Assembly: GCF_964204865.1 (NCBI RefSeq)
Contig: NW_027556556.1
Location: 1-64,000 of the forward strand
Length of the DNA: 64,000 nt
Source of the DNA: Styela clava
Lineage: Eukaryota; Chordata; Ascidiacea; Stolidobranchia; Styelidae
Reading direction: 5' to 3'
In this document: piece by piece, positions 1,727-60,068 of the stretch
Layout of the letters: each line of letters starts with the position of its first letter
Numbering within the stretch: the stretch's first letter is position 1
Made by a program: the position numbers and the translations under genes
Notes under the pieces: generated by a model
What the model was told of the DNA's origin: nothing
The model's input: the letters and a program-made list of their open reading frames with translations, nothing else
Database searches by the model: none

Positions 1727-1803
1727 TGGGGTAAGCGGTGGGAGTCGAACCCACTCGTACCGGACCCACAATCCGGAGCGTTAACCGATTCGCCACACTC
1801 ACC
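1727..1803 (-). tRNA. tRNA-His (GTG)
   Basis: Cloverleaf on the minus strand with an 8-bp acceptor including the extra G-1 typical of tRNA-His, a CCGGA/TCCGG anticodon stem with loop TTGTGGG, a T arm with GTTCGAC and an encoded CCA end. It lies between the structured RNA at 1809-1962 and the head genes, on their strand, so it is likely cotranscribed with them and released by processing. Confidence 0.93.
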
Positions 1804-2530: not shown

Positions 2531-2538
2531 AAAAACCC

Positions 2539-2566: not shown

Positions 2567-2709
2567 AGAGGGGGGACCTTTCAAAATATTTTTAGCCTCT
2601 TTTTGAGGAAGAGCGAAAAAATGCCCTATTTTAGCCAATAAGTGGAGCAATCGGGTTTTTGCCCAGTCATAGAGCCAAAAAACGGCCTTTTTAAGGGGTG
2701 GAATCGTTC

Positions 2710-3532: not shown

Positions 3533-3560
3533 TTGACAAAATAAAAAAAAGGTTTATAAT
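3533..3560 (+). promoter_or_regulatory. Strong sigma70-type promoter of the early arm
   Basis: TTGACA at 3533-3538, 16-base spacer, TATAAT at 3555-3560, followed by an A/G-rich leader and the AAAAGGAG site of the first gene. Copy 2 keeps both boxes (48913-48918, 48936-48941) with a 17-base spacer and changed surrounding bases. Confidence 0.85.
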
Positions 3561-3637
3561 ATAATTAGAGAAAGAGGGAAAGAAAAAAGCAAATTAAATT
3601 TTAATAAAAGAAAAGAAAAAAAAAGGAGATTTTAAAA

Positions 3638-3862
3638 ATGGAAAACAAAACACAATTTAAAAATGAATTAAAGGAATTATTAGAATTGGACCACTACCAA
3701 TTAATTATTGGAGAGGTTGACGGATTGAATGAAGCCGAAGCCTTTAAAGTTTTAAAAAATGCTAAATTTGATTGCGACGAAGAAGCCGACAGCTTCGAAA
3801 GTCAAGCGATCCAGTTTTTTAGCGACAAGGTGGCGGATTTCGTGGCAAAGTGGGAACAATAA
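3638..3862 (+). CDS. Small acidic protein, 74 aa
   Basis: First gene of the early arm, with AAAAGGAG before the ATG and a strong promoter upstream. The protein is acidic and predicted mostly helical, ending in ADFVAKWEQ. That ending resembles the EEFAKKWDD end of the 4979 gene, suggesting a local family of acidic paralogues. No function recognised. Copy 2 has 73 residues with a few acidic substitutions, so it is conserved but fast-changing. Acidic early phage proteins sometimes inhibit host defence or DNA-binding proteins; that is only a guess here. Confidence 0.8.
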   Translation: MENKTQFKNELKELLELDHYQLIIGEVDGLNEAEAFKVLKNAKFDCDEEADSFESQAIQFFSDKVADFVAKWEQ

Positions 3863-3959
3863 CCCCACACGGGGGAGGGAGAGCCTCCCCAAGTATTAAA
3901 AAGCAAGTAAATAAATAAATAAAGATAGGGCAGAAAGCCCGGAAAGGAGAAAAAAAGAC

Positions 3960-4532
3960 ATGGAAAAAAAAGAAATTCAAGAATATTTAGCCGATAAAAT
4001 GCCGGTTGAATGTGCCGAAAATTTAAGCACTTACAGCATTACGCAAAATTTGCGAGGTTTGGACTGTAGGGACGAGGAGGACGAAAAAAACCGATTATTA
4101 AAAATTATTAATAAATTTGGCCACCAATGCGCAAGCGGTGACCGCGAACAATGCGAAGAAATCCGCGACTTTTTGGCCGATTTCGTAATTTGTTGGCCTT
4201 ATTCAATTTTTAGCGAAGAAGAGCAAAAACAAATTGATTTTGACAATCGCAATTTAAATTTTTTAGATAATTTTTTTAATTTAAATTATCCGGATTTTTT
4301 CGATATTGTTTTAAATGGTTTAAAATTCGAATTTGCCGAAGTGTTGCGGGAAAATTATACGGTTGATTTTTTGGACGCTGAACAATGGGAGGAATTAAAA
4401 CAATGAATTTTTGCAAGTTGTCGAATTGTTGCGGAAGAATGCCGAGCCAATCCAACGCCGAAATTTCAAAAATATTTAAAAGAAATTGAAGAGTTTACGA
4501 AAAGATGAGACAAGGAGGCAAAAAATGAATAA
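3960..4532 (+). CDS. Acidic hypothetical protein, 190 aa
   Basis: ATG after AAAGGAG. UGA at 4404 is read as Trp; the frame continues through WIFASC to TAA at 4530-4532. Rich in Asp, Glu, Asn and Phe, with seven or more Cys. The end overlaps the start of the next gene by 8 bases, pointing to translational coupling. It shares the acidic helical style of its neighbours but I recognise no domain. Copy 2 (49341-49913) has scattered substitutions but the same length. Confidence 0.8.
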
Positions 4533-4920
4533 ATTAGCACGCCAAAACCAAACGAAATTTTGCGATATCTTACAAAACAAGATTTTAAAGAATTGAGGGG
4601 GTGGAGAAGTAAAAAAGCGTTTCGATTATTTTTTAGGTTTAAAATCGATTTATTCCGACCATAAAAAAAATATATTTAAAAAATTAATTGATAAAAAAAT
4701 TAAAGCCGATAACCTCACCCCTTCAACTTTTAACGCCTTCAAATTTGAAATTTTGGCAATTTGTAAAGGATTAAGCGACGAAGCCAACACGTCAACCAAA
4801 AAGCGATTGGCAAAAAAAGACGTTGAAAATGCGAAAAAATTAATTGATTTTTCAATTAGATTGAACGAGCTTTTAGATTTCGAGCCTGAAAAAATGGATT
4901 TCGAACCGTTTAAAAGATAA
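4525..4920 (+). CDS. Hypothetical protein, 131 aa
   Basis: ATG preceded by AAGGAGG at 7 bases, overlapping the preceding gene. UGA is Trp at about residue 23. Unlike its acidic neighbours it is Lys-rich in the middle (DHKKNIFKKLIDKKI) with an acidic tail. No recognised domain. Conserved in copy 2 with clustered substitutions near residues 60-70 and 110-120. Confidence 0.8.
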
Positions 4921-4978
4921 AAAAAACAAACAAATTAAATTAAAATATGATATAATTAAAAAAAGGAGATTTTAGAAA

Positions 4979-5338
4979 ATGACAAACAAAAAAAAGATTT
5001 GAGAACTTGACGAATTACAAGAATTTAAAAACGAATTCGAAAGCCTAGACAACCCGGACATTGCCGACATTGTCAGCGAAAACATGGCGGAACAATTAGG
5101 CGAAGAATTAGCCCAAAAATGGGAAAATTGAGAATACGACGAGACCGAGCCCGACAGCGAAGACAACCCGACACCTTCCGAAATTGAAGAGATAACAAGA
5201 ATTATTTTTTCGGCGTGCTATTCTTGCGCCGAAATTTTGGGAAATTCTGAAGCAGAGGCCACAAATGGACGGGTAGCAATGGAATTTTGCGAGTGACGCG
5301 AAGAATTGGAAGAATTCGCGAAGAAATGGGACGATTAA
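4979..5338 (+). CDS. Strongly acidic hypothetical protein, 119 aa
   Basis: Starts after AAAAGGAG; a TATAAT at 4951-4956 may give it its own promoter. Three UGA codons are Trp. Very Asp/Glu-rich (for example DETEPDSED near residue 60), then a Cys-containing helical part (SACYSCAE), ending EEFAKKWDD. The composition would fit a DNA-mimic type anti-defence protein, but nothing beyond composition supports this. In copy 2 (50378-50737) the length is unchanged. Confidence 0.75.
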
Positions 5339-5351
5339 GGAGATCGAAAAA

Positions 5352-5740
5352 ATGGAAAACATTAGACAAAAAAAATTAAAATTGTTGCGCGAAATAAAAA
5401 AAGATCTTAAAAAATCGTATTATTTTGATATTATCGACCGCGTGCGTTTACTAGTACCGCAGGAAATACGCAAAAAAAAATAAACGATTTAACCAATGCC
5501 AATTTGGATTTAATTTTAAATTGAATTTTTGCGGAATGCGACAGAAGACACGGCAACGCAAAAAGGGAGGAGATCCGCCAATTGGAATTTTTCGGCGATA
5601 ATGGAGAATATGAAGCCCAATTTTTGCGAGAGATGCGCGGAGAGCTTCGAGGCTTAAGAAATTGGGGCCAAAATATTTTTGACGACATAAAAGAATTAGA
5701 AAAAAAACAAAAAAAGGAGATTTTAACAAATGGAAAATAA
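5352..5740 (+). pseudogene. Acidic hypothetical gene broken by a homopolymer frameshift
   Basis: ATG at 5352 after AAGGAG. After 43 codons the frame meets TAA at 5481 because the run of A at 5472-5480 has nine bases. Copy 2 has ten A at the same place and reads on without a stop to give 132 aa (50752-51150). Downstream of the run the copy 1 sequence still encodes the matching C-terminal part, through UGA=Trp to TAA at 5738-5740. Either this allele is truncated, a sequencing indel exists, or slippage on the A run restores the frame. Confidence 0.8.
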
Positions 5741-6131
5741 CAACAAAGAAAATTTTTTTGAGTTCAAAAGAAGGGGGCAAATCGATTTAATAATATTTAT
5801 TAAAGAATTTAAAGCATTGAACGACGCCGAGGGTCACGATCTCCGCGAATTCGTCCGCGATTTCGTGATTGAAAGACTCGAAGAGGTGGCCGAGAACCTC
5901 GAAAAGTTGGCGCGTTTTGATCTTTTCGCCGTAATTTTGGGGGGATGTCGTGACTACGTCAATTTTTTACGCGAGGAAATCGACAGATTAGCCGGGAAAT
6001 CTGACCCCGAAGATATCGACGAATCGGCGCAATTAATGAAATTATGCGCGAACGTTTTAAAGTTTATTTTTAAATGAGAGGCCGAAAATGTCGACGGCGA
6101 CGACGAAGACACCCCGAGCGTATACATTTAG
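5730..6131 (+). CDS. Acidic hypothetical protein, 133 aa
   Basis: ATG after AAAAAGGAG; overlaps the tail of the broken gene before it. UGA at 6075 is Trp and the frame ends at TAG 6129-6131. Acidic and helical, with a central AVILGGCRDYVN segment like the SACYSCAEI segment of the 4979 protein, supporting a paralogous family. Followed by a good terminator, so it closes the first early operon. Confidence 0.8.
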
Positions 6132-6165
6132 ACCCACCAACAGCACCACCGCGACAAGCAGAAGG

Positions 6166-6190
6166 GCCCGGAGTTTTCCGGGCTTTTTTT
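6166..6190 (+). terminator. Rho-independent terminator
   Basis: Perfect GCCCGG/CCGGGC stem with a six-base loop followed by seven T. Copy 2 keeps the stem with a shorter loop (51640-51662), a compensated change that supports function. Confidence 0.92.
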
Positions 6191-6594
6191 GTATATTTGG
6201 GCACTATGAAAATTAACCCCGAAAATTTTTTTTGCGTGGTTTATGTCGTAAATTTTTTTTACGGGCTTAATTTTACACCTTCGAAATTGAACAACGCGAA
6301 ACAGGCCCGCAATTTAAAAAAACGACCTAAACCATTGAACGCAAAAAAAAAGGGCCTAAATTTAACAATCGAAAAAAACCAAAAAAATACTTGACAAATA
6401 AAAAAAAAGGTATAAAATAAATATAAGAAAAAGCAAAAAAAAAATTAGCAAAAGGGAAAAAATGGCATTATCAGAAGGAAAAACAAGCCAAAAAAAAATC
6501 AAAAAAAATTAAAAAAAACCCTTGACAAATAAAAAAAATTGGTTTATAATAAAATTAGAAAAGAAGAAGAAAAAAAAAAGGAGAAAAAAAAGAC
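6191..6594 (+). promoter_or_regulatory. Spacer with two early-type promoters
   Basis: Non-coding apart from a doubtful 16-codon frame at 6462. Promoter 1: TTGACA 6391-6396 with TAAAAT 6413-6418. Promoter 2: TTGACA 6522-6527, 17-base spacer, TATAAT 6545-6550. These resemble the 3533 promoter in their A-rich context and look like copies of one cassette. Confidence 0.7.
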
Positions 6595-6823: not shown

Positions 6824-7378
<555 letters not shown>

Positions 7379-8211: not shown

Positions 8212-9447
8212 ATGAATAAAACAGAATTAATAGAAAAATGAAGTCAGTTTTGAACTTCAAAGAAACATTTTAAAATAGAAAACAAATCGATAATTAACAA
8301 AGAAGGTTCATTATTATTTGTAAATTCAGGCGTTTCAGCGTTGAGACCTTATTTTTTAGGAGAAAAAACACCACCGCATTCACGACTTTTTAATGTACAA
8401 GATGTAATACGTACAAACGACATCTCTTTAATAGGTAAAACTAATCGACATTTAACGTTTTTTCGCATGTTAGGTAACTTTTCATTTAATGATTATCAAA
8501 AAAAAGAATCGTTAACGTGAGCATTAGAATTTTTAACATCGCCAAAATGATTGAATTTGGACATTCAAAAATTGTATATTACGTATTTGTTTTCGGACGA
8601 TGAAACTAAACAAATATTGTTAAATATAGGTGTTGAAGAAGACCATTTGATTTCAGGAGATAAAACAACTAATTTTTGAGATTTAGGAGTTGGTCCATGT
8701 GGAACAAATGTTGAATTTTTTTATGATTTGGGACAGCAGTTGGATAAGGAAAATAAAGGAATTGAATTATTAAAAGAAAATATTGATAATGACAGATATT
8801 TAGAAATATGAAACGTTGTATTTTCTTATATGATAAATGACGGTGAAGGTAATTACACTATGTCAAACAAAAAAAATATAGATACTGGAGCCGGATTGGA
8901 AAGATTGTTGATTGTTGTTAACAACTTTAAAACACCTTTCCAGTTGAAAGAATACACAGATATTGCTGACAAAATTGAAAAGAAAACTACAAATGATATC
9001 AATGTTAAAATTATTTGTGATCATGTATTAGCGATAAAATATTGTTTGAAAGACTTGATTAAAGAAAAATATATTGATTTCAAAAAACGTCACGGTTCGG
9101 TTGTACGACATTTAATTCGAAATGCTTCAATGCGTGGTTACTTCTTAAATTATCGAGGACCATTTTTATTTAAACTTTTCGAAAAAGAATATGATACAAT
9201 AGTAATGAAAGAAGAAAAGGTTTTTTGAAAAATAATGACAACAAAAACAGTAAGTGATTTATTAAACATACAAAAAGGTTATGTTTTAAAAGGAGAAAAA
9301 ATATTTGATTTGGTTACATCAAAAGGAGTACCTTTATTATTGATTAAATTAATAAGTAAGAAAAATAGTTTCAAATTAGACATGATTAAATTTAAAAAAT
9401 TATGAGAAAAACATTTGATTATTTCAAAAGGAGGAAAAGAAAAATAA
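8212..9447 (+). CDS. alaS-like: Minimal alanyl-tRNA synthetase (catalytic core only), 411 aa
   Basis: Class II synthetase of the AlaRS type: motif 1 region LLFVNSG at 34-40, motif 2 TFFRMLGNFSF at 82-92, GPCGTNVEF at 161-169, RYLEIWN at 195-201 and motif 3 DTGAGLER at 224-231. A region like the AlaRS tRNA-binding middle domain follows (RHGSVVRHLIRNA), then the protein ends. The editing domain and C-Ala domain of the usual 850-900 residues are absent; what remains resembles in extent the N-terminal E. coli fragment known to aminoacylate. UGA gives conserved Trp at 156 and 200, fixing the genetic code. Copy 2 differs by about 13 bases, about 11 synonymous, so it is under selection. Its likely substrate includes the phage tmRNA at 14065. 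Confidence 0.95.
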
Positions 9448-9836
9448 TGTACAAAAAAGTAGAAAACTACGTGGATAACGTAATAAAAAAATACGAAAGT
9501 TTAAAGTTTTATAAACAATTGCTTATGTGAGCAATAATTCAAAAAATGAAGGAAAAAGATGGTGAAAACCAACCAGTAAAAAAAAAGACAGTAGAAGAAT
9601 ATATATATGAGATTGAAAATAGCATTGTCCCATGGGGTCTCGATTTAAACTTATTGAGAGAACATTTAGCGAATAGTAGCAGACTTTACGATGAATGTGA
9701 AGAAAGAATACAAAAAGAAATGGATATGCAAGAGCAGTATAAAAATATGATTATAGCATTTAAACATTGTATAGATAATTATGAAGATATTATCGCAACA
9801 AGAAGAGGACCTCCCTGAGAGTGAGGAAAAAAATAA
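9447..9836 (+). CDS. Hypothetical protein, 129 aa
   Basis: ATG overlaps the synthetase stop by one base (TAATG), with GGAGG upstream, so the two are translationally coupled. Predicted largely helical and charged; no Cys cluster or known motif. UGA at residues near 28, 124 and 126 is Trp (final WEWGKK). Coupling to the synthetase makes a helper role conceivable, for example in RNA binding, but nothing in the sequence proves it. Identical in copy 2. Confidence 0.75.
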
Positions 9837-9921
9837 TGAAAGAAAAAAAATAATGTGATATAATAAAAATATAGAAATAAAGAAGAAAACAGATAAGATC
9901 ACTTCTAAGGAGAAAAAAGAA

Positions 9922-10251
9922 ATGTTACAAGAAAAAACAAAAAAGTTCATCGAAGAACTAATAAAGGTTAACGGGGAAGACGGTTATGATTATCGTGAAT
10001 GAGTTCTAAGCGATATTAAGGAAGCAATAGCAAAAGAAGATGTTTATTTGGAAGAATTGATTAATTTAGATTGATTAAAAATAATTTTAAAATCAAGTCG
10101 TAATTATTTGGATGCTTTAATAACAGAAGCAGAACGATTAGAAGAGAGCGAAGATGACGACGACGTGGACGAAGCTTATAAATTATTCGATCTCGCTGAT
10201 AACGTTGAAGAATTTATAGGAAAATGAGAAGATGAAGGAGGAAAAGAATAA
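9922..10251 (+). CDS. Acidic hypothetical protein, 109 aa, replaced in copy 2
   Basis: Preceded by a TATAAT and AAGGAG. Very acidic (EESEDDDDVDE near residue 75) and ends EFIGKWEDEGGKE, like the acidic proteins at 3.6-6.1 kb. Three UGA are Trp. Copy 2 has at exactly this place an unrelated 45-aa gene (55269), with flanks identical apart from the join, so this is a swap locus for small accessory genes. Confidence 0.8.
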
Positions 10252-10466
10252 TGACAGAAAATGAAACTATTATTCAATTATTGAAAAATTTTGAAAAGAT
10301 GATTAAAGCAAATCATGAAGACATTAAAAAGTTAGGTGAATGCCTTAATCATAATTCAGAAAGTAGTATTGAACAAGAAAAAGATATTAAAAAATTATTT
10401 GAAAAAACAAAACAATTGACAAAGTTAATTGAAAATAAAGGAGGAAAAAATAATGACAAAAAATAA
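10251..10466 (+). CDS. Coiled-coil protein, 71 aa
   Basis: Overlaps the previous stop (TAATG). Highly charged with heptad-like spacing of I/L over most of its length (IIQLLKNFEKMIKANHEDIKKL). No further domain. Followed by a 14-base overlap with the next gene. Similar in style to the 45-aa protein found upstream of it in copy 2, so it may be one of a set of short coiled-coil partners. Confidence 0.75.
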   Translation: MTENETIIQLLKNFEKMIKANHEDIKKLGECLNHNSESSIEQEKDIKKLFEKTKQLTKLIENKGGKNNDKK

Positions 10467-11049
10467 AGAAACAACACTAAAACACAACGCGGATCATATT
10501 TGAGAATGACAATTGACAAAAGAACAAGTGGCTTTCATCAAAAAAGGTGTTCCACTTTACGATTCTAAAAAAAAATATAAAAAATTAGATATGTTTATAT
10601 ACAACAATAAATTATATGTTGTTAGATTATATAGCTTACACAAAACAGGTGTTTATATGTCAGCCACACCACTATTAACAAACGGTAACTGTATTATAAA
10701 AAATAAAGATGAAGATTTTTATGAATTGAATGGATATGCTAATTTATTACCTAAACCTTTTAACTTAAAAGACGCATACTTGAGTTTAAAATACATTAAT
10801 AGCGTGTGAGAAAGCTGTACTAGTACAGTAAGGGATGATGATAAATACACGTATGAACATAACAAATGATGAAACAAAAATGAAAAATATAGATTTCCCA
10901 ATTTACCGGCTTTTAAGACCATGAAGAGATTAATTCAAATGGCGGTACCTCACCCAACAAGTAGCGGTGCAATTACAGAAGAACGATTATTAGAGGTTGA
11001 AAAAAAAATAGATTATATTATTAAATATCTAAAAGGAGGAAAAGAATAA
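10453..11049 (+). CDS. Early protein with a stand-alone copy of the fibre repeat module, 198 aa
   Basis: Start ATG after GGAGG. Residues about 16-118 match the repeated module of the giant structural protein: WxxQLTxEQVxFI, a KxLDxFIYNNKLYVV segment, then PFNLKDAYLSLKYINSVW, against QLTDDQIDFI, DLFVQDDELYIIAN and PFNTDGANLSMKYVNSVY. The C-terminus carries PHPTSSGAIT and a short coiled coil, not seen in the repeats. It lies among early genes on the opposite strand from the structural genes. It may be a soluble decoy, chaperone or host-surface binder; its function is unknown. Confidence 0.8.
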
Positions 11050-11828
11050 TGTCAAATTTTTCGGATGGAAATGGAAAATATAAAAAAATATCTTACGACG
11101 AATTAAAACAATTAGAAAAAAAAATGGAAAATACACTTATTAGTGCTGTTGAAAAAATGAATTGTGGTATGGTTTATTGTGATTGAATGAGCTGGGATGA
11201 GTCACCACATGAACCTTTGAGAGGTCGTTTTGTCGTCACTATTGAGTCTATGGGTCATAGATTTGACTTTGTAAACTTTAATATTCATATTTTAGAAAAA
11301 AAACCTAGACGATGATATCATTTAGAAGATAGTGATAATAACAAAATCGAAGTTTATTTAATACTTGAGGATTTTGAAAAATTAGATGATTATCTTGAAG
11401 AATTTAAAAAAACTATTAGAAAAGAAATGAGTTCAATTATACTAGCTAAAAATTGAAATAGATTATATAGTTATGATTTTGAAAATATTCGTATGAAAAA
11501 AGTTTGAAAAATTTCACAAAAATATTTTAACAAAGACTATAATGAAGCCGATGAATCAACAAATAATTACCCATCTTACATGAAAAATAAAGTTTCACGT
11601 AGCGCTTTCAATAGATGTCGAAAAAATCTTGTTAACTTAGCAAAAACAAAACTTTCAACTTGAAAAAAAGGCGATAATCCCAAAATATTTATTGGTGTAT
11701 ATGCTGTTCTTGATTGAGAAAAAGAAAACGTTGAAAAAATAAAGACAATTAATAGAATTAGAAAAGAAATAGCTAATCAAAAATTCACGAAAAAAAGAGG
11801 ATCGTATAAATATAAAGGAGAAGAATAA
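11049..11828 (+). CDS. Hypothetical protein, 259 aa
   Basis: Overlaps the previous stop by one base. Seven UGA codons are Trp. Acidic/aromatic N-terminal half, strongly basic C-terminal 90 residues (NRCRKNLVNLAKTKL, KFTKKRGSYKYKG), possibly nucleic-acid binding. No family recognised. Some resemblance in size and Trp pattern to the 15346 protein. Identical in copy 2. Confidence 0.8.
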
Positions 11829-12238
11829 TGAAATATATGACAAAAAAACAAGTAGAAAAATTTAATTCAAAAATGAATCAGAGAAATTTGAAGTTTCATG
11901 ATTATTTTGAAAAAATCAGTAAGGAAATTACAAAAAAACATCGAAAATGAATATACACAAACACCAGTTGAGATGATAACGACAGTAAAAGAGTTGTGTT
12001 CTTCATGAATTTCGAACAACGTAAAGACGAGGATAAATCATTTGACCTTAAGGTTATGGTAAGTTGCGACACTAAAAAACTATGCCGGTTGAATGTTGTT
12101 TTCGCTGAATGACGAGAAGACATGCCTGAAAAAAAGTTTGATAAAGAATTTGGATATGATTTTCTACATCAAATGATATTTAAGGACATGCTCAAAAAGT
12201 TTGAAAAGGAAATTACAAAACAAGAAAAAAAAAGATAA
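11828..12238 (+). CDS. Hypothetical protein, 136 aa
   Basis: Overlaps the previous stop (TAATG) after AAAGGAG. Lys/Glu-rich helical N- and C-termini around a central beta-rich part (RVVFFMNFEQ, DLKVMVSCD, CRLNVVFAEW). Three UGA are Trp. Last gene of this operon; followed by the structured intergenic region. No function recognised. Confidence 0.75.
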
Positions 12239-12298
12239 AAAAAAGATGCAAAAAGGAAACACAATTTATTTTTTTTACCATGTATATTATTGTGAAGA

Positions 12299-12442
12299 GG
12301 CAGTGACAACTAGCTTAAGCGACAATTTCCTTTCCTTTATCTTTTTATTTTCAAAGTCACTGTTTCATTCACCTTAACCGGTCATATTACGGCCGGTTTT
12401 ATGACGAGGTCTTGGTAAACGTCAAGGCTTCGTCTCTCTGCC
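12299..12442 (+). ncRNA. Candidate structured RNA or leader upstream of thymidine kinase
   Basis: Three paired elements lie in order: CAGTGAC/GTCACTG (12301-12362), AACCGG/CCGGTT (12376-12398) and a 12-bp hairpin GACGAGGTCTTG/CAAGGCTTCGTC (12403-12434, two G-U pairs). GGCAG at 12299-12303 can pair with CTGCC at 12438-12442, closing a multi-branch fold that competes with the first stem. The gap is 253 bases, unusual in this compact arm. It may be a 5' leader with alternative folds, or a free RNA. AACCGG/CCGGTT followed by TTT could also act as a weak terminator. Confidence 0.45.
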
Positions 12443-12491
12443 AGCAAACAAAAAAAATAAAAAAAAAAGGAACACAGGAGGAAAAAAAACA

Positions 12492-13046
12492 ATGTTCAAA
12501 CAAGAGTTATTGAATAAAGGGCTCATTATTTCAATCGAAGGAATCATGAGAGCAGGAAAGACGACAAAGTTAAAAAAGCTTATCGCAGAATGAGGTATTG
12601 AAGAACCACAAATTTTTCAATTAGAAGGAACAACAAGAGAAACACGTCAAATTAGACCAGTTATCACTTTTCGTGATCATATCGATTTGACAAATAAAAT
12701 TGAAGATGCCATAGCTAAAGGACACAATGTTCTATTTTTTGATGAATTTCACTTTTATCCATATGAGTTTCTACAACAAATTCCAAACTTACAACGCCGT
12801 CGTATTACTCTTGTATTTTGTCTATTGACATTATATAAGACAGATCCACGATATTTTTTTCAAGAATACGTTGGAAGATTTGCTGACGTTCGTTACCAAT
12901 TAGACGAAGCTCGTTGTTTCGAATGCGATGAAAAAGCATATTCTAATTACATTTTACACAACGACAGTAATAATTTGGTTGGAGACGCTGATAAATATCA
13001 AGTATTATGTATTAAACATTATATAGAAAAGACTAAATATAAATAA
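12492..13046 (+). CDS. tdk: Thymidine kinase (type II), 184 aa
   Basis: P-loop EGIMRAGKTT at 16-25, Walker B-like FFDEFHF at 82-88 where the family has DE.QF, a zinc-type RCFECDEKA at about 139-147, and a C-terminal GDADKYQVLC. Length fits the family. Makes dTMP from thymidine and ATP, feeding the dTMP kinase at 18210. Strong AGGAGG before the ATG. The second Cys pair of the usual zinc site is incomplete (C..H), a deviation. Identical in copy 2. Confidence 0.9.
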
Positions 13047-13050
13047 AACT

Positions 13051-14052
13051 ATGAAAAATAAAAAACAAATAAATCAATTAACATACGAGGAAAGAATGTT
13101 TTACTACACACACAAACATAAAGGAATAACAAGTAAACAAGTGTGAGTTAACTACTGAGACTCGAAAGATACCAAATCGGGAATATTAACTACTTTTGAG
13201 GAACATTTTTCGGTTTATTGATGATTCTTGAATAGAATGAAGAAAGCAGGAGCCAAATGATACATGAATAAAGAAGGTTGTCCTGTGTTTTACAATATTA
13301 AATCACTTAATATATACAATAAATGCTTTGATCCAAAATCAGCATTAGTGAGTGCTTCTATTTTGGCGAAAAAGATTATCGAAACAGGAGAAGAATTTGG
13401 ATATTTAAAGTTTCTTGAAAAGTTCAAATACGAAATCAGTATATTTAAAAACACAACTATATATCTTCAAGAAAAAGATATAAAAGCTATTTGTCAAAAA
13501 TTAGAAATCAAGAAACACAATTTGTGAAAACTAAATGAAGAACAAATCGAACTATGTAAAGACATTAAATTTCAAAGTCCTTTTTTTAAAAAACATAGAT
13601 TAACTAAATGATCGCTATATCGAATAAAAAGAATGCGATTTAGTACAATAGAGGTTGACAACTTATACTTAGACAACAAATATAAAAAAAGTACGAAAAC
13701 ACATACTAAAATTAAAGATATTATCGAAGAATATGTTATCGAGAATGACATTAAAATTAAAAAAGATAAAACAAATCATCTTTTATTGTCTGTTTTTCGT
13801 AAATTGTGAATTTGAAACGATTACATTTTTTCGCTCGATGAAACACCTAAAAACATTAAAGATAAAGGTTTTGAGGTTGTTGGTAAACACTATAACATTT
13901 ATGGAGAGAATAAAATATTCACCAGTAGATGACCAGCATTGCATCGTTTCGCAAGAGTTTATAGGAAACTCGAACCTAAAACAACAATAGAAAAGAAAGA
14001 AACATTTTTACAATATTTAAAAAGAAAATTATTTGGAGGAGGAAAAGTGTAG
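13051..14052 (+). CDS. Hypothetical protein, 333 aa
   Basis: Starts 4 bases after the kinase stop; no strong ribosome site. Nine or more UGA are Trp. The N-terminus (YEERMFYYTHKHKGITSKQ) could be a winged-helix-type DNA-binding region, and the C-terminus is basic (FLQYLKRKLFGGGK). TAG at 14050 overlaps the -10 box of the tmRNA promoter. A replication-initiation or regulatory role is possible but not shown. Confidence 0.7.
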
Positions 14053-14058
14053 TATAAT
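14053..14058 (+). promoter_or_regulatory. -10 box of the tmRNA-tRNA operon
   Basis: TATAAT seven bases before the mature tmRNA 5' end, so transcription could start almost exactly at the mature end. No clear -35 box; TTGGAG at 14033 is a poor one with 14-base spacing. Confidence 0.65.
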
Positions 14059-14064
14059 ATATTC

Positions 14065-14353
14065 GGGGATGTATAGGTTCGATTGGCGTAGTTTCTTTTT
14101 TTAACAAATGCAAAAACAACTACAAACAACCTTTCAATGTTGATGAATGAATCCTCATTGGTATCTAATAACACGTTTCAGTTTTCACCGTCATATTAGA
14201 GAATATAATAACAAAAAAACCCCTTAATTGTCAGTTGCGGGACAATTTCGTAAATAGCAACTAAGTTTCGTTTGAATGATCATATAAAGCGAAATTAAAC
14301 AATCATGATCAAATTGCGTCAAGAAGTGGGTGCAAATCCCGCCATCTCCACCA
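14065..14353 (+). ncRNA. ssrA: tmRNA (transfer-messenger RNA)
   Basis: The 5' end GGGGATGTATAGGTTCGA and the 3' end with a T arm (GTGGG-TGCAAAT-CCCGC), CATCTCC, A and encoded CCA are the tmRNA signature. The acceptor stem pairs GGGGATG with CATCTCC and has the G3-U70 wobble that marks alanine acceptance. Length 289 nt. The tag frame is uncertain: starting at GCA 14110 it gives AKTTTNNLSM and ends at TAG 14197; the +2 frame gives KNNYKQPFNVDEWILIGI, a hydrophobic end followed by TAATAA. Downstream palindromes fit pseudoknots (for example TTGTC...GGGACAA). It rescues stalled ribosomes together with SmpB; no SmpB is seen here. Confidence 0.93.
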
Positions 14354-14356
14354 TTT

Positions 14357-14432
14357 GGATCTGTGGTGTAATGGATGACATGCCTCTCTGTCTAAGAGGA
14401 GATAGCGAGTTCGATTCTCGTCAGGTCCGCCA
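14357..14432 (+). tRNA. tRNA-Asp (GTC)
   Basis: Acceptor GGATCTG/CAGGTCC, anticodon stem CCTCT/AGAGG with loop CTGTCTA, T arm with GTTCGATTC, encoded CCA. Three bases after the tmRNA. Confidence 0.93.
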
Positions 14433-14433
14433 C

Positions 14434-14519
14434 GGAGGAGTAGCGAAGTGGTTAAACGCGTCTGACTGTAAATCAGATTCTTTTTAGATACGGGAGTTCG
14501 AATCTCTCCTCCTCCACCA
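14434..14519 (+). tRNA. tRNA-Tyr (GTA)
   Basis: Acceptor GGAGGAG/CTCCTCC, anticodon loop CTGTAAA, a long variable arm as in bacterial tRNA-Tyr, T arm GTTCGAATC, encoded CCA. Confidence 0.93.
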
Positions 14520-14522
14520 TTT

Positions 14523-14599
14523 GCTGGTTTAGCTTAATGTGGCAAAGCACCCGTCTTGTAAACGGACGAGTACAGGTTCGAGGCCTGTAACCAGCACCA
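14523..14599 (+). tRNA. tRNA-Thr (TGT)
   Basis: Acceptor GCTGGTT/AACCAGC, anticodon loop CTTGTAA, T arm GTTCGAGGC, encoded CCA. Confidence 0.92.
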
Positions 14600-14602
14600 T
14601 TA

Positions 14603-14676
14603 GCAGATGTAGTTTAATGGTAGAACTTCAGATTTCCAATCTGACTATGGAGGTTCGATTCCTCTCATCTGCTCCA
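14603..14676 (+). tRNA. tRNA-Gly (TCC)
   Basis: Acceptor GCAGATG/CATCTGC, stem TCAGA/TCTGA with loop TTTCCAA, T arm GTTCGATTC, encoded CCA. Confidence 0.93.
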
Positions 14677-14679
14677 TAT

Positions 14680-14755
14680 AGAGCCATAGCTTAGTGGTTA
14701 TAGCGCTCGCTTTATAAGCGTGAGGTCTTGGGTTCGATCCCCAATGGCTCTACCA
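14680..14755 (+). tRNA. tRNA-Ile (TAT)
   Basis: Acceptor AGAGCCA/TGGCTCT, anticodon stem CTCGC/GCGTG (one mismatch), loop TTTATAA giving anticodon TAT, T arm GTTCGATCC, encoded CCA. Reads AUA directly; most bacteria use a lysidine-modified CAT tRNA instead. Confidence 0.9.
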
Positions 14756-14756
14756 T

Positions 14757-14832
14757 CGGAAAGTAGCTTAGATGGAAAAGCACTCGGTTTGGGTCCGAGA
14801 GATCATAGGTTCAAGTCCTCTCTTTCCGACCA
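14757..14832 (+). tRNA. tRNA-Pro (TGG)
   Basis: Acceptor CGGAAAG/CTTTCCG, stem CTCGG/CCGAG with loop TTTGGGT, T arm GTTCAAGTC, encoded CCA. Confidence 0.93.
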
Positions 14833-14836
14833 TTTA

Positions 14837-14913
14837 GCCCACGTAGCTCAATTGATTAGAGTAAGGGTGTTCTAAGCCCTAGGTTGGAGGTTTGAATCCT
14901 CCCGTGGGTACCA
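14837..14913 (+). tRNA. tRNA-Arg (TCT)
   Basis: Acceptor GCCCACG/CGTGGGT, stem AGGGT/GCCCT with loop GTTCTAA, T arm GTTTGAATC, encoded CCA. Last of the array; reads AGA/AGG, the common Arg codons of AT-rich genomes. Confidence 0.93.
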
Positions 14914-14937
14914 TATAAGGAAAGGAGGAAAAAAAAT

Positions 14938-15198
14938 ATGGAAAATAGAATAGATAAAATTAAACGAATGTTTGCTGTTGACGATGAAGTGTCACGTTGC
15001 GAATCAAAATTGCGAGCCGATCTCAAATCAAAAAAAGTTGATGTACAACGACTTATGACAGCACATTTGGATATTAATTCGATCCCTAAAGACATTACAA
15101 AAAAACAACAGGCGCGTCGAAAAAAAGTGTACAAAAGTATAAATAGCATGATAAAATATTACATAAAGGAATTAAATAAAATAGGAGGTCAAAAATAA
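14938..15198 (+). CDS. Basic hypothetical protein, 86 aa
   Basis: Follows the tRNA array directly; AAAGGAGG before the ATG. Lys/Arg-rich and helical throughout (KKQQARRKKVYKSINSMIKYYIKEL), probably nucleic-acid binding or dimeric. No recognised family. Overlaps the next start (TAATG). Confidence 0.8.
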   Translation: MENRIDKIKRMFAVDDEVSRCESKLRADLKSKKVDVQRLMTAHLDINSIPKDITKKQQARRKKVYKSINSMIKYYIKELNKIGGQK

Positions 15199-15329
15199 TG
15201 ACAAATAGAGAAAATAGATTAGAAAAATTAAGAGAAATATTACGTAGTATGGTAGATAGTAATAACCCAAAAAGAAAACCAATGAGTTTCAGAAAAAAAC
15301 ACGCGGGTCCAATCGCTACGGATGTTTAG
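15198..15329 (+). CDS. Very small basic protein, 43 aa
   Basis: ATG overlaps the preceding stop after AGGAGG; ends at TAG 15327. Basic (RKPMSFRKKHAGPIATDV tail). Shares its MTN(R/K)EN start with the next gene, suggesting a duplicated leader. Too short for a functional call; translation is supported by the ribosome site and perfect conservation in copy 2. Confidence 0.6.
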   Translation: MTNRENRLEKLREILRSMVDSNNPKRKPMSFRKKHAGPIATDV

Positions 15330-15345
15330 GAGGAAAAGAATAATA

Positions 15346-16035
15346 ATGACAAATAAAGAAAATAGAAAATTGTTTTGAGACAAATATAAAAAATTTCAAT
15401 CACATCAAGATTTGTGAGTATATAGTGATTTAACGGATAGAATAATGTTTGGTCCAAACATTAAAGATGCTAGTATTGAAAAAAGAATATTGGATGTAAT
15501 ATGAGATAATTCAAAAATTGAAGATTTAAATGATAACGATTTTCATAAATTAAAAGAAGAAGTTCTAATCGATATTTCTGAAATGATTAAATGTAATGAT
15601 AAAATTTTAAATTCACAATTAAAATTTTTAAACAGACAAAAAGATACTTTGAAGTCATTAATATTTTTTAAAAAACAACAATGAGGAGAATATAGATTTT
15701 ATTTAGAAGAAATAATAACAAATGTAAACAAACAAAATCATTCTTTCAAAGATAAACATGTATATCTTAACTATATAATTAATAATTCGAATAGTGATAA
15801 TGTTACTTTTCGATATACTATAGGTTTGGATAATAAAAAAAAACATGGTATTTGAGAATTTGATATAACTATTTATCCCGCGAGTGGACAGTTAAACGTA
15901 GAACATAATGGTTACAATATGAGAGTTTCTGGACCATATTATAATGTGTTTAAAGAAAAAACAGATATTATTAATCGAATTAATGAAGCAATAACGGCAT
16001 ATATAAGCCATAATAAAATAGGAGGTCAAAAATAA
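15346..16035 (+). CDS. Hypothetical protein, 229 aa
   Basis: ATG after AGGAGG. Five UGA are Trp. Helical N-terminal two thirds, then a beta-rich C-terminal part (YTIGLDNKKKHGIWEFDITIYP). Resembles the 11049 protein in size, Trp use and operon position but no alignment was made. Overlaps the next gene (TAATG). Function unknown. Confidence 0.78.
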
Positions 16036-16916
16036 TGACAAAAAATAAACAAACAAAAGAAGTTTTAAGCTTCTTACAAAAAAACAGGTTAGACAGTATC
16101 GTTTTAGGAGTTGGCGCATTAAGTTTAATTGGTGCCATCACTGGAATTGTGTTACATAGTATCACATTGAGCAAAAGCGTACCCACAAAAGTAACAATCT
16201 ATGATGAATTAGTAATTAAACGAGACGCAGATTTTGAAGCTCAAAAAACAGCATCTATTACTAAATATGGAATAATTGAAGATGCTACTATAGAAATTAC
16301 AACCAAGTTAAAATATGAAATTGGAATTGGAAAAAAAACACCCATTACATTTAAAGAATTATTAGCGGAATCAATCAAACAAGATTATAAATTAAATAGT
16401 CAATTTTTCATTGAAGCATTAGACGAAAAAATCATACTTATTGAAAAAGCTATTGCTAATAAAACAAAGGAAATTGAAGATAGAGGATGACTAAGAAAAT
16501 CATATAGAGAAGATTCTGTAGCTTCCGATGAAAGTACCGCTGATGTAATGGAAAAACAAGACTTAACACCTTTAAGAGAAAAAGAAACAGACGCCGAATT
16601 TGAATTGAAAGTATTAAAATCAACACTAAAAAAATATGAATCAGCTAAAGAAAAATGAGGATCATATGGGTTAAATTTTCCTAACAATGATATTAAAGAA
16701 GACGCAATTAAAGAATTGTCAGAACCATATAAAACATTTGATAAAGCGTTATTGCTTTCAGAAAATGATACACAATACGGATATCACGCAGATCGTGTAG
16801 TAAATAATAGCATTGGGCTTGGATTAGCAGGTGTTGCTTTCATCGTTTTAAGCTTAGTTTTAACAAGCACAGCATTTAAATTGTGAAAAAAATTAAGAGG
16901 AGGAACAAAAAAATAA
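16035..16916 (+). CDS. Two-pass membrane protein, 293 aa
   Basis: Hydrophobic segments at residues about 23-45 (LGVGALSLIGAITGIVLHSI) and 263-285 (GLGLAGVAFIVLSLVL), with a long charged, partly coiled-coil region between and a short basic tail. This puts about 220 residues on one side of the membrane. Three UGA are Trp. Could be a superinfection or host-surface protein; no family recognised. Confidence 0.8.
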
Positions 16917-17197
16917 TGAATAAAATATTTGAACCAAATAATAAAGATATACTCAACAACATTTATGAATGCGATTATTGTACCATTCACTGCCTAGACG
17001 AATCATCACATCTATTATTTACACCATGTTTTGAGCATAAATATATTGGTTTAGAACTAATTAATGATGTTTTAAACCTTGGTGCTTTGTGTACTGACGC
17101 AGAAGCCATTGCTAAAATATTCAAAATCTCGCTAAAAGAAGCGTATGAAAAAGTAAGAGAGATAAACGCAATTAAAAAAGGATATATCACAAAATAA
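16916..17197 (+). CDS. Hypothetical protein, 93 aa
   Basis: ATG overlaps the previous stop after AGGAGGA. Has C/H residues (CDYCTIHC near 20-27, plus CFEH) that could bind a metal, then an HTH-like stretch (TDAEAIAKIFKISLKEAYEKV). A small zinc-containing regulator is possible, with low certainty. Confidence 0.7.
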   Translation: MNKIFEPNNKDILNNIYECDYCTIHCLDESSHLLFTPCFEHKYIGLELINDVLNLGALCTDAEAIAKIFKISLKEAYEKVREINAIKKGYITK

Positions 17198-17554
17198 ATG
17201 AATCATTGAGACAAATTAGAACATGAAAAATATTTCTACAAGGAGAGAAAAAGTGAAATATATTTTTCCTACAGATTTTTTGATGGGAACGAAAATTCAG
17301 AATATAGAATAATCGAAGACACGATAATATATAAAATATATACTAAAAAAATAAATGTTAAAGGTCTCAAAAGTTTATTTAAAAAATATAGCGAGTTGGA
17401 TATCAAAATAAGAGAAACATATATAGATACTTCACAACATATATTATTAGAAGATATAGAAGAATCAATTAGTTATATTTTACATTGTGAAATGATGAAG
17501 CGATTATTGAGTTTTCATATTATCAAACTAGAAGAATTGCAAAATGATAAATAA
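17198..17554 (+). CDS. Hypothetical protein, 118 aa
   Basis: Starts directly after the previous stop. One UGA is Trp at residue 4. Mixed helix and strand, charged, Ile- and Tyr-rich; no recognised motif. Overlaps the ligase-like gene by 11 bases. Confidence 0.65.
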
Positions 17555-18206
17555 TAAAACGTTAAAAAAATTTTGAAACTTAGAAGACATTTTATTTAAA
17601 TTGGCACCACACGCTAAAACAATAGTGGTGAGTCCAAAACTTGATGGGGTGGGAGCATTTTATGATGCTTCTACCAATAAGTTAATTGTTTGCCGTTCTT
17701 GATCAGAAATAACAACTTTTTCCATAGAAGGAATATTGGAAGTCGGCTGGGGCGAACTTGTTATGAAAAAAGAAAATGGGACACGAAGAGACGTTGTTGG
17801 TCTTCTTAATAGGAAGCAAAAAGTGGAACGACATAATTTAATTGATTTCATTAATTATAAAAATGTTGAAAAAACAATAAAAATTGATGAGTTAAATGAT
17901 TACATCGAACAACAAAAACAAATTGATTATCCTATTGACGGTATTATTATCGAGCGTAAATACGCGTTCAAATTACCAGGACCGACGGCGTGTGCAACAA
18001 TCAAAAAAATAACTACACAATTTGGAAAAAAAACTGGTAAAATAAGTTATATAGCATGATTAAACCACCCTGTTAAGTTGAATGAAATTTTCGCTAAGAA
18101 AGTTAATTTATCAACAAATAAACAAGGATACAAGGTTGGAGACCACATTGTTATTGAACTGAAAGGACAAGCAGTACCAATAGTGATACGAAAGGAGAAC
18201 ATGTAA
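17544..18206 (+). CDS. Short NAD-dependent DNA ligase-like protein, 220 aa
   Basis: SPKLDG at 30-35 is the ligase KxDG adenylation site. GWGELVM followed by a basic stretch and N resembles the family RGE motif region, and YPIDGIII near residue 132 resembles motif IV (lDGvVvK). The end (YKVGDHIVIELKG) looks like the start of an OB fold. Bacterial LigA is about 670 residues; the Ia, zinc, HhH and BRCT parts are missing. It may be a compact phage ligase or a nucleotidyltransferase. UGA=Trp is needed at residues 11, 53 and about 172. Confidence 0.7.
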
Positions 18207-18209
18207 AAA

Positions 18210-18869
18210 ATGAAAAAAGGAAAATTTATTGTTGTCGAAGGAATTGATTATTCTGGTAAAACAACATATATTAAAAAATTAAAAAAAGAATTAAAAAAAG
18301 AAGGATTGAAAGTACTTACAACATGCGAACCAAAAGGTATAAAATTTGGACGCATTATGGCAAATAAAATCTTTTTCAATGATAAACTAGATATTAGTTC
18401 ACGAACTAAAGCAGTTTTGTTTATCGGAATTGGATGAGAATTATTTATGAAATATATCAAACCACAATTGAAAAAATACGATGTTGTTATTTGTGATCGA
18501 TACATTTTTAGTACTTATGCTTATCAAGTTTTCGGTGGAGACAAAACAATTAATGAACACGAATTATTAGGATTATATAACGAAACTATTTTAGATGATT
18601 ATTTCCCTGATGAAATTCATTTTCTCGATTGTCCTACGACTGAAATAATGCGTCGAGCAACAATTCGAAAACCAACAAACAATTACGACGAAAAATGCCT
18701 TGATAAAAAGTACGTTAATCTAATACGTTCTGCGTTTCGAAAAACATTCGATTTTTTCAACGCTAAAGGTGGTTACGCCGTTAAACAACAAATAGAAAAA
18801 GTTACAATATATAGGAAAACAACCCAAGATAAGGAGCTTTGAGGAGAAATATGAAAAAAAGTAATATAA
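18210..18869 (+). CDS. tmk: Thymidylate kinase, 219 aa
   Basis: P-loop EGIDYSGKTT at 10-19 preceded by FIVV, the family start; CDRY with the DR motif at 96-97 and a following YAYQ. Phosphorylates dTMP to dTDP, downstream of the thymidine kinase at 12492. Length fits. AAAGGAG before the ATG. UGA=Trp within the helix after VLFIGIG. The 3' end overlaps the next gene by 19 bases. Confidence 0.93.
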
Positions 18870-47059: not shown

Positions 47060-47136
47060 TGGGGTAAGCGGTGGGAGTCGAACCCACTCGTACCGGACCC
47101 ACAATCCGGAGCGTTAACCGATTCGCCACACTCACC
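47060..47136 (-). tRNA. tRNA-His (GTG), second copy
   Basis: Identical to 1727-1803, including G-1 and encoded CCA. Confidence 0.93.
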
Positions 47137-50737: not shown

Positions 50738-50751
50738 AGGAGATCGAAAAA

Positions 50752-53557: not shown

Positions 53558-54793
53558 ATGAATAAAACAGAATTAATAGAAAAATGAAGTCAGTTTTGAA
53601 CTTCAAAGAAACATTTTAAAATAGAAAACAAATCGATAATTAACAAAGAAGGTTCATTATTATTTGTAAATTCAGGCGTTTCAGCGTTGAGACCTTATTT
53701 TTTAGGAGAAAAAACACCACCGCATTCACGACTTTTTAACGTACAAGATGTAATACGAACAAACGACATCTCTTTAATAGGTAAAACTAATCGACATTTA
53801 ACGTTTTTTCGCATGTTAGGTAACTTTTCATTTAATGATTATCAAAAAAAAGAATCGTTAACGTGAGCATTAGAATTTTTAACATCGCCAAAATGATTGA
53901 ATTTGGACATTCAAAAATTGTACATTACGTATTTGTTTTCGGACGATGAAACTAAACAAATATTGTTAAATATAGGTGTTGAAGAAGACCATTTGATTTC
54001 AGGAGATAAAACAACTAATTTTTGAGATTTAGGAGTTGGCCCATGTGGAACAAATGTTGAATTTTTTTATGATTTGGGACAGCAGTTAGATAAAGAAAAC
54101 AAAGGAATTGATTTATTGAAAGAAAATATTGATAATGACAGATATTTAGAAATATGAAACGTTGTATTTTCTTATATGTTAAATGATGGTGAAGGTAATT
54201 ATACTATGTCAAACAAAAAAAATATAGATACTGGAGCCGGATTGGAAAGATTGTTGATTGTTGTTAACAACTTTAAAACACCTTTCCAGTTGAAAGAATA
54301 CACTGATATTGCTGACAAAATTGAAAAGAAAACTACAAATGATATCAATGTTAAAATTATTTGTGATCATGTATTAGCGATAAAATATTGTTTGAAAGAC
54401 TTGATTAAAGAAAAATATATTGATTTCAAAAAACGTCACGGTTCGGTTGTACGACATTTAATTCGAAATGCTTCAATGCGTGGTTACTTCTTAAATTATC
54501 GAGGACCATTTTTATTTAAACTTTTCGAAAAAGAATATGATACAATAGTAATGAAAGAAGAAAAGGTTTTTTGAAAAATAATGACAACAAAAACAGTAAG
54601 TGATTTATTAAACATACAAAAAGGTTATGTTTTAAAAGGAGAAAAAATATTTGATTTGGTTACATCAAAAGGAGTACCTTTATTATTGATTAAATTAATA
54701 AGTAAGAAAAATAGTTTCAAATTAGACATGATTAAATTTAAAAAATTATGAGAAAAACATTTGATTATTTCAAAAGGAGGAAAAGAAAAATAA
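53558..54793 (+). CDS. alaS-like: Minimal alanyl-tRNA synthetase, second copy, 411 aa
   Basis: Same length and motifs as 8212-9447. I count about 13 base differences, clustered in 53740-54310, of which about 11 are synonymous and two conservative (Glu to Asp, Ile to Leu). All UGA=Trp positions are kept. This pattern shows selection to keep the enzyme. Confidence 0.95.
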
Positions 54794-59219: not shown

Positions 59220-59508
59220 GGGGATGTATAGGTTCGATTGGCGTAGTTTCTTTTTTTAACAAATGCAAAAACAACTACAAACAACCTTTCAATGTTGATG
59301 AATGAATCCTCATTGGTATCTAATAACACGTTTCAGTTTTCACCGTCATATTAGAGAATATAATAACAAAAAAACCCCTTAATTGTCAGTTGCGGGACAA
59401 TTTCGTAAATAGCAACTAAGTTTCGTTTGAATGATCATATAAAGCGAAATTAAACAATCATGATCAAATTGCGTCAAGAAGTGGGTGCAAATCCCGCCAT
59501 CTCCACCA
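59220..59508 (+). ncRNA. ssrA: tmRNA, second copy
   Basis: Same as 14065-14353, with the G3-U70 pair and encoded CCA. Confidence 0.93.
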
Positions 59509-59511: not shown

Positions 59512-59587
59512 GGATCTGTGGTGTAATGGATGACATGCCTCTCTGTCTAAGAGGAGATAGCGAGTTCGATTCTCGTCAGGTCCGCCA
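59512..59587 (+). tRNA. tRNA-Asp (GTC), second copy
   Basis: Same as 14357-14432. Confidence 0.93.
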
Positions 59588-59588
59588 C

Positions 59589-59674
59589 GGAGGAGTAGCG
59601 AAGTGGTTAAACGCGTCTGACTGTAAATCAGATTCTTTTTAGATACGGGAGTTCGAATCTCTCCTCCTCCACCA
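59589..59674 (+). tRNA. tRNA-Tyr (GTA), second copy
   Basis: Same as 14434-14519, with long variable arm. Confidence 0.93.
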
Positions 59675-59677
59675 TTT

Positions 59678-59754
59678 GCTGGTTTAGCTTAATGTGGCAA
59701 AGCACCCGTCTTGTAAACGGACGAGTACAGGTTCGAGGCCTGTAACCAGCACCA
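59678..59754 (+). tRNA. tRNA-Thr (TGT), second copy
   Basis: Same as 14523-14599. Confidence 0.92.
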
Positions 59755-59757
59755 TTA

Positions 59758-59831
59758 GCAGATGTAGTTTAATGGTAGAACTTCAGATTTCCAATCTGAC
59801 TATGGAGGTTCGATTCCTCTCATCTGCTCCA
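59758..59831 (+). tRNA. tRNA-Gly (TCC), second copy
   Basis: Same as 14603-14676. Confidence 0.93.
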
Positions 59832-59834
59832 TAT

Positions 59835-59910
59835 AGAGCCATAGCTTAGTGGTTATAGCGCTCGCTTTATAAGCGTGAGGTCTTGGGTTCGATCCCCAAT
59901 GGCTCTACCA
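59835..59910 (+). tRNA. tRNA-Ile (TAT), second copy
   Basis: Same as 14680-14755. Confidence 0.9.
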
Positions 59911-59911
59911 T

Positions 59912-59987
59912 CGGAAAGTAGCTTAGATGGAAAAGCACTCGGTTTGGGTCCGAGAGATCATAGGTTCAAGTCCTCTCTTTCCGACCA
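59912..59987 (+). tRNA. tRNA-Pro (TGG), second copy
   Basis: Same as 14757-14832. Confidence 0.93.
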
Positions 59988-59991
59988 TTTA

Positions 59992-60068
59992 GCCCACGTA
60001 GCTCAATTGATTAGAGTAAGGGTGTTCTAAGCCCTAGGTTGGAGGTTTGAATCCTCCCGTGGGTACCA
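59992..60068 (+). tRNA. tRNA-Arg (TCT), second copy
   Basis: Same as 14837-14913. Confidence 0.93.

Follow-up and report, generated by a model that had tools for sequence, protein, structure and literature searches.

A core-only alanyl-tRNA synthetase and a tmRNA lacking PK1 in a tailed phage from the Styela clava assembly

The window analysed here, a stretch of 64,000 nucleotides from the Styela clava assembly (contig NW_027556556.1), comprises 1.4 tandem units of a tailed phage of ~45 kb that encodes both a minimal alanyl-tRNA synthetase (AlaRS) and a tmRNA with G3-U70 in its acceptor stem. Which RNA does such a phage synthetase serve? The first-pass annotation took the two genes for a dedicated pair, a charging enzyme and a rescue RNA brought along by the phage; we weigh this proposal against a broader use of the enzyme on host RNAs.

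The phage unit and its host

Units of this phage, located via AlaRS, number 24 and are spread over 17 small contigs of the assembly; outside this count stand a 34-residue AlaRS piece on C49, the 25th match in the assembly, and three AlaRS matches on C2 and C4, taken as the eukaryote's own. The terminase (PF04466, 2.6e-5; phrog_2, 3.9e-15) and the portal protein (phrog_533, 2.7e-10) identify the phage of the window as tailed. In scans that reach close relatives only, 5.8 billion proteins yielded 4828 candidates for scoring but no terminase relative, and neither the polymerase-like protein nor the capsid candidate had a relative in the phage collection or IMG/VR. We infer that the host probably belongs to a bacterial group that reads UGA as tryptophan; tmRNA and SmpB were reported in 39/39 mollicute genomes surveyed (PMC4014445). 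A 16S search of the assembly itself scored five places, on C2 and C14, which were taken for nuclear 18S. Pfam recognized no SmpB, no integrase and no second aminoacyl-tRNA synthetase (aaRS) among the 39 ORFs scanned (116 ORFs of at least 75 aa overlap the unit). Among 10,604 phage residues alanine accounts for only 4.3%, which gives no sign of a strong demand for this amino acid.

The synthetase and the tmRNA

The mini-AlaRS gene (8212..9447, + strand) encodes 411 residues in a frame that is open only under translation table 4, with eight in-frame TGA codons read as Trp. Its copy in the second tandem unit (53558..54793, +) differs from the first at dS 0.048 and dN 0.002. The PF01411 (class II) profile covers the catalytic and tRNA-recognition parts, and the protein stops at residue 411 and has neither an editing nor a C-Ala domain, the layout of a mini-AlaRS. 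The AlaRS fold is kept, as are the class II active-site residues R67, M86, W156, D224, G226 and R231; W156 occurs in 56 of 57 homologues and the other five in all 57. These homologues were hand-picked at a query coverage of at least 91%, not as every row at that coverage, among the 120 listed of 3367 found, in a search that admits no protein longer than 1.75 times the query; the AlaRS tree was built from 33 rows. As judged from dN/dS values of 0.04-0.14 in the compared pairs that differ, the gene is under purifying selection. Between lineages dS is 0.206 and dN 0.028, and the two C318 copies differ at dS 0.066 and dN 0.004. Used as the sole query, AlaRS had no match in IMG/VR, in a scan that reaches close relatives only.

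The tmRNA of the window, type A, occupies 14065..14353 (+) and recurs, identical, at 59220..59508 (+). It is 289 nt long and matches RF00023 over model positions 1-374 (E 9.3e-14), with 38.1 bits, below the cut-off of 47; ARAGORN misses it. Its helices and pseudoknots point to the same identity. The 5' strand of acceptor stem P1 (GGGGATG, 14065..14071) pairs with 14343-14349 and includes the G3-U70 wobble, and the 5' strand of P2 (14084..14094) forms 11 pairs with 14311-14321. They enclose hairpin P5 (14137..14164, 10 pairs), PK2 (14164..14220, 7 + 5 pairs, its first base shared with P5), PK3 (14226..14262, 7 + 6 pairs) and PK4 (14264..14311, 10 + 7 pairs, its last base shared with P2), all on the + strand, which together supply the P2, hp5 and PK2-PK4 of a tmRNA. 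Among 300 shuffles, the summed score of the best three pseudoknots was reached by 2, that of the best two by 17 and that of the best one by 28. The tRNA-like domain has G3-U70, a T arm and an encoded CCA, and its T loop reads UGCAAAU, with G at the place where U55 is usual. PK1 before the tag is absent, as merely 15 bases (14095-14109) lead from P2 to the first GCA; single-stranded RNA can stand in for PK1, as reported in PMC4236655. The tag has two candidate frames, AKTTTNNLSMLMNESSLVSNNTFQFSPSY and a stop, read from GCA, or ..KNNYKQPFNVDE-W-ILIGI and two stops, with TGA as Trp. Type A is identical in 19 places, its helices intact.

Six nucleotides upstream of tmRNA base 1 lies TATAAT (14053..14058, +), which the promoter scan does not list and which is a possible -10 element, lacking a convincing -35; in units with the second tmRNA type, type B, the same box sits ~30 nt further upstream of the tmRNA. 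In IMG/VR, the 5' end of type A had no match, and the single match to the 3' end was set aside, as the phage it comes from is unrelated and its tmRNA permuted.

Downstream of the tmRNA runs an array of tRNAs for Asp, Tyr, Thr, Gly, Ile(UAU), Pro and Arg(UCU) at 14357..14913 (+), repeated at 59512..60068 (+), with G3-U70 in none. The window phage carries no tRNA-Ala. Among 22 distinct phage tRNA sequences, G3-U70 occurs only in tRNA-His(GUG) (1727..1802, -; identical in the second unit at 47060..47135, -), which has an encoded G-1 and C73 and is without A73, G2-C71 and G4-C69. The first-pass annotation had described the AlaRS core, the G3-U70 tmRNA and the array without tRNA-Ala, and all three hold.

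Co-occurrence of the two genes

Were the enzyme dedicated to the phage tmRNA, perhaps to keep phage translation going once the host system is damaged, or to add a phage-specific tag, the two genes should travel together, and in 21 of the 24 AlaRS-bearing units they do. The acceptor of type A also bears A73, G2-C71 and G4-C69, which with G3-U70 are among the bacterial alanine signals (PMC9976931), and no phage tRNA offers this combination. Charging of the phage tmRNA by the phage AlaRS is plausible. A further point in favour comes from comparing a unit with tmRNA (C154a) and one in which none was found (C216), where the tRNA-recognition half of AlaRS has dN 0.060 and the catalytic half 0.005, as if the former were tuned to a different RNA; dS is higher in the recognition half too (0.333 against 0.130), and part of the gap may therefore reflect mosaic exchange.

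The partnership is nevertheless not a fixed one: a related lineage in which a whole unit shows AlaRS but no tmRNA is a case that the first-pass annotation itself had named as counting against the pair. The genes lie 4.6 kb apart, and nearly identical AlaRS proteins accompany two very different tmRNA types. In the sister lineage of C216 and C318, AlaRS is conserved; positions 11800-61799 of C318 hold one whole unit of 45.26 kb, in which patterns and Rfam found no tmRNA and a single tRNA, tRNA-Gly (A3-U70), was found, so that the enzyme there has no findable phage G3-U70 RNA. When two type A loci were added to the C318 pieces for an Rfam run, both type A copies were recovered at E 5.6e-12 and nothing in C318. 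Since ARAGORN cannot see type A, the negative for C318 and C216 rests on patterns and Rfam; the whole-genome RF00023 search was not counted for them, because the window's own tmRNA is unlisted there, and genome searches with RF00023 were counted only above the cut-off, because matches to it at E <= 0.001 also arose in 14/14 controls, archaea included. The tmRNA reading covered 20 of 55.9 kb in C216 and, in the second C318 unit, 51.8-61.8 and 61.9-64.9 kb. Host tmRNA, moreover, would also be a substrate. A dedicated pair is, on balance, unlikely.

Among phages at large, tmRNA was reported in 402 of 18,146 genomes (PMC9004378), while AlaRS matched 27 of 50,697 phage records. These 27 matches, 20 of them listed, were set aside as possibly bacterial DNA, many being short contigs without annotation that bear the names of Listeria, Enterococcus or Salmonella, and one a Salmonella record of 691 kb.

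The first-pass annotation knew of no described phage with both genes. We found none in print, but both genes are present in two IMG/VR phage records that lack a description, G001 (411 kb; terminase match to phrog_2, E 1.5e-29, a family that also matches in 11/14 control genomes) and G003 (90 kb), with a mini-AlaRS (445 aa at locus L084) and a G3-U70 tmRNA in one record. They differ from the window phage in that the tmRNA measures 354 nt and has the tag ANTYAMAA, that four genes for tRNA-Ala lie no more than 2 kb from AlaRS, and that the AlaRS retains the N and D discussed below, is open under the standard code and falls in another clade of the tree. Among 23 IMG/VR loci with AlaRS, L084-L086 (nearly one stretch), L087 and L090 are mini by stop-to-stop length; the remaining 18 are longer, short or cut. 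Melnitz and the 402 phage genomes likewise have tmRNA inside the phage genome, where the roles already proposed for it are maintenance of the translational apparatus or the tagging of host proteins; the Melnitz tmRNA is in two pieces with a glutamine riboswitch (PMC9004378), whereas that of the window phage is in one piece, without PK1, and accompanied by a phage AlaRS.

Reading of the alanine signal

In E. coli AlaRS, N303 and D400 contact G3-U70 (PMC10036535). The phage enzyme has neither, with K291 in place of N and T369 in place of D. Across the 57 homologues the first site is N in 56 and Q in 1, and the second D in 50, E in 5, T in 1 and K in 1. The phage R85 stands where 55 of 57 have E, and at R85, H294 and S296 between 55 and 57 of the homologues agree on a different residue. 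C154a, C216 and C318a, the three AlaRS sequences compared, share K291, T369 and R85. The closest relative among the matches listed, P0001, is also core-only (463 aa, 45% identity), shows Q and T in place of the contacting N and D, and joins the phage AlaRS in a clade with support 100/100, both on long branches; it lies on an NCBI contig of 280,592 bases, ~6 times the phage unit, and as IMG/VR query it found one relative at 34%.

These altered contact and near-invariant residues, with a tRNA-His that bears G3-U70, could mean that the enzyme charges another RNA, mischarges, or acts outside charging. We consider this doubtful, as tRNA-His lacks the other three signals and a precedent exists. The Tupanvirus mini-AlaRS, also virus-encoded and reduced to the catalytic and tRNA-recognition domains, has P and T at the two sites (T at the D site is common to both enzymes) and still charges tRNA-Ala and microhelices specifically via G3-U70 (PMC10036535). 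Loss of N and D is therefore not decisive, although activity of the phage enzyme on G3-U70 is not assured either, given the deviating K291, T369, R85, H294 and S296. Tupanvirus is a giant virus of amoebae with a 461-aa enzyme, 20 aaRSs and its own tRNA-Ala (PMC10036535), whereas the window phage has a 411-aa enzyme and neither a tRNA-Ala nor, in the 39 ORFs scanned, a further aaRS.

A phage-owned alanine route, in which a mini-AlaRS with a new reading of the acceptor stem is tuned to the PK1-less tmRNA and its strain-swapped tag, making rescue and marking independent of host AlaRS and tmRNA, seems quite improbable. That both genes are unused pieces captured from the host, as when imprecise excision at tmRNA genes, known prophage sites, picks up fragments (PMC9004378), is very improbable in view of the selection on AlaRS, the unvarying type A tmRNA with its intact helices and the lack of an integrase among the ORFs scanned.

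We give about an even chance to a mini-AlaRS that alanylates host tRNA-Ala and, where present, tmRNA during infection. As a catalytic core alone, the enzyme would read only the acceptor stem and could load alanine, inside the infected cell, on any RNA whose stem offers a suitable G3-U70 pair. Host tRNA-Ala would be its main substrate and tmRNA a further one, the phage's own if present and otherwise the host's, and the presumed benefit would be that the supply of Ala-RNA is kept up during infection. Within the tRNA cassette, the phage tmRNA would be an element of its own, open to exchange, which frees stalled ribosomes together with SmpB, presumably the host's.

A 45-kb phage in which no other synthetase was found thus keeps a 411-residue AlaRS core without the textbook contacts to the alanine signal. 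It would be the second case after Tupanvirus, and one from a bacterial virus, of G3·U70 being read without Asn and Asp, by an enzyme that is very small and lends itself to assays. Because natural units carry one of two tmRNA types or none, the question of which RNA a phage synthetase serves becomes directly testable.

Tandem phage units, their genetic code and their proposed host

The window opens contig C154 of a eukaryote-sized assembly (377 Mb in 379 contigs) and contains an internal tandem repeat, in which 1–18.8 kb recurs at 45.3–64 kb. Its terminase, portal and primase-like proteins indicate a tailed phage. Positions 10235–18800 and 55390–63955 differ by 3 mismatches in 8566 bases; 2519–6587 and 47898–52057, also in adjacent units, are merely 87–90% alike (10–13% different), and such divergence beside a near-identical segment may reflect either mosaic units or mixed phages merged in assembly. 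At an equivalent site, each tandem unit has an uninterrupted (ATA) microsatellite, with 93 repeats in the first (7065–7342) and 104 in the second (52378–52688), and the terminase/portal block includes minus-strand ORFs of 1658 aa (29766–34742) and 2597 aa (36893–44686), the latter with internal repeats apparent by eye.

The 411-aa mini-AlaRS ORF (8212–9447 and 53558–54793, plus strand) has 24 copies in the assembly, across 17 contigs of 24.8–137.9 kb, several of them about 45 kb, or one unit. Its first copy matches PHROG family phrog_28604 (‘unknown function’; profile length 897; E 1.2e-42), which by this similarity is probably an AlaRS family.

Trp is encoded by TGA 177 times and by TGG 3 times in 21 phage ORFs, so the infected cell must decode UGA as Trp. 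Mycoplasmas are among the named close AlaRS matches, among the matches listed. Code and matches together suggest a mollicute host; the searches made did not find the host of the phage itself. In the AlaRS tree, the phage enzyme and its closest sequence, P0001, form one clade with long branches, outside the named mycoplasmas. A tRNA-Trp(UCA)-like gene that would read UGA (ARAGORN label SeC, tca) was seen in sister-unit loci L139 (C137), L140 (C54) and L112 (C98); it is absent from the tRNAs found in the window unit, though TGA is used there too.

Fold of the type A tmRNA

The type A tmRNA (14065–14353 and 59220–59508, plus strand) was missed by ARAGORN. Rfam model RF00023 aligns 14065–14353 end to end at 38.1 bits, below the cut-off of 47, with E-values of 9.3e-14 (601-base scan) and 5.6e-12 (scan of 36 kb from loci bearing this RNA). 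Examined by hand, P1 forms 7/7 pairs, G3·U70 included, P2 11/11 and P5 10/10; the T stem forms 5/5, with loop UGCAAAU. The two-piece (permuted) tmRNA of L169, an IMG/VR phage contig, likewise has T loop UGCAAAU. A 12-pair stem between the P2 stretches was matched in 4 of 2000 single-base shuffles. PK2, PK3 and PK4 are present, in order; among 300 dinucleotide shuffles, the sum of the best three pseudoknots was reached by 2, of the best two by 17 and of the best one by 28 (6, 7 and 14 for the type B tmRNA of other units). The unknotted fold is unremarkable (z −1.21). The RNA lacks PK1; tagging still works in a tmRNA whose PK1 is replaced by single strand (PMC4236655). Of two candidate tag frames, one starts at GCA and runs 29 residues across hp5 into PK2; the other ends ..DE-Trp(TGA)-ILIGI, with TAA TAA just past hp5.

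Co-occurrence of AlaRS and tmRNA

The identical type A tmRNA occurs in 19 of the 24 AlaRS units (both window units and 17 of 20 extracted loci). Two others (C137, C98) carry type B, of 350 nt (Rfam 70 bits; ARAGORN tag ANISIPLENYAYSYAV), and their tRNA array adds tRNA-Val, tRNA-Gln and the UGA-reading tRNA-Trp(UCA)-like gene. No tmRNA was found in the remaining three, one on C216 and two on C318, sister-lineage contigs whose AlaRS is 92–93% identical in the AlaRS search of the assembly. Five pieces of C318, which together span 50 kb and so exceed one 45.26-kb unit, yielded only one tRNA-Gly and no tmRNA by patterns, Rfam and ARAGORN; a control Rfam scan of three C318 pieces and two type A loci recovered both type A tmRNAs and none in C318. 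The C216 negative covers 20 of 55.9 kb (10.9 kb of it downstream of AlaRS), and that for the second C318 unit 51.8–61.8 and 61.9–64.9 kb. AlaRS is thus kept under selection where these scans detected no phage G3·U70 RNA. The AlaRS–tmRNA pairing proposed by the first-pass annotation is seen in 21 of 24 units, but not in these three: a dedicated pair is possible where a tmRNA is present, but is not general.

The annotation also knew of no described phage with both genes. Literature searches, which reached few subscription journals, found no paper on phage AlaRS plus tmRNA, but two IMG/VR phage records, G001 (411,059 bases; mini-AlaRS of 445 aa) and G003 (89,798), each hold a mini-AlaRS and a tmRNA of 133.5 bits, so the combination is not unique to the window phage. 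Their tmRNAs are identical, so they look like a single phage population. Among the five mini-AlaRS records searched, tmRNA exceeded the cut-off in these two; G002 gave weak, tRNA-like matches only. G001 also matches terminase family phrog_2, which scores in 11 of 14 controls.

Possible substrates of the phage AlaRS

In G001/G003, unlike the window phage, both genes sit amid many tRNAs, and the enzyme retains the Asn and Asp that contact G3·U70 in other AlaRSs (K291 and T369 in the window phage); four tRNA-Ala genes lie close to AlaRS. In huge phages, as many as 15 synthetases occur, along with tmRNA and SmpB (PMC7162821), and the Tupanvirus mini-AlaRS, which has P and T in place of N and D and is without C-Ala, is still G3·U70-specific (PMC10036535). 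The 22 distinct phage tRNA sequences show G3·U70 in tRNA-His(GUG) alone (1727–1802 and 47060–47135, minus strand; encoded G-1, C73; GC 60% vs ~31% for the phage). The window is where this tRNA was observed, and the majority of the remaining stretches are not long enough to contain it. Charging, tagging and benefit to the phage are predicted roles that go beyond the sequence. The most economical account, and the one preferred here, is that the phage AlaRS would read the acceptor stem only, serving G3·U70 RNAs in general, with tmRNA as one client in the units that have it.
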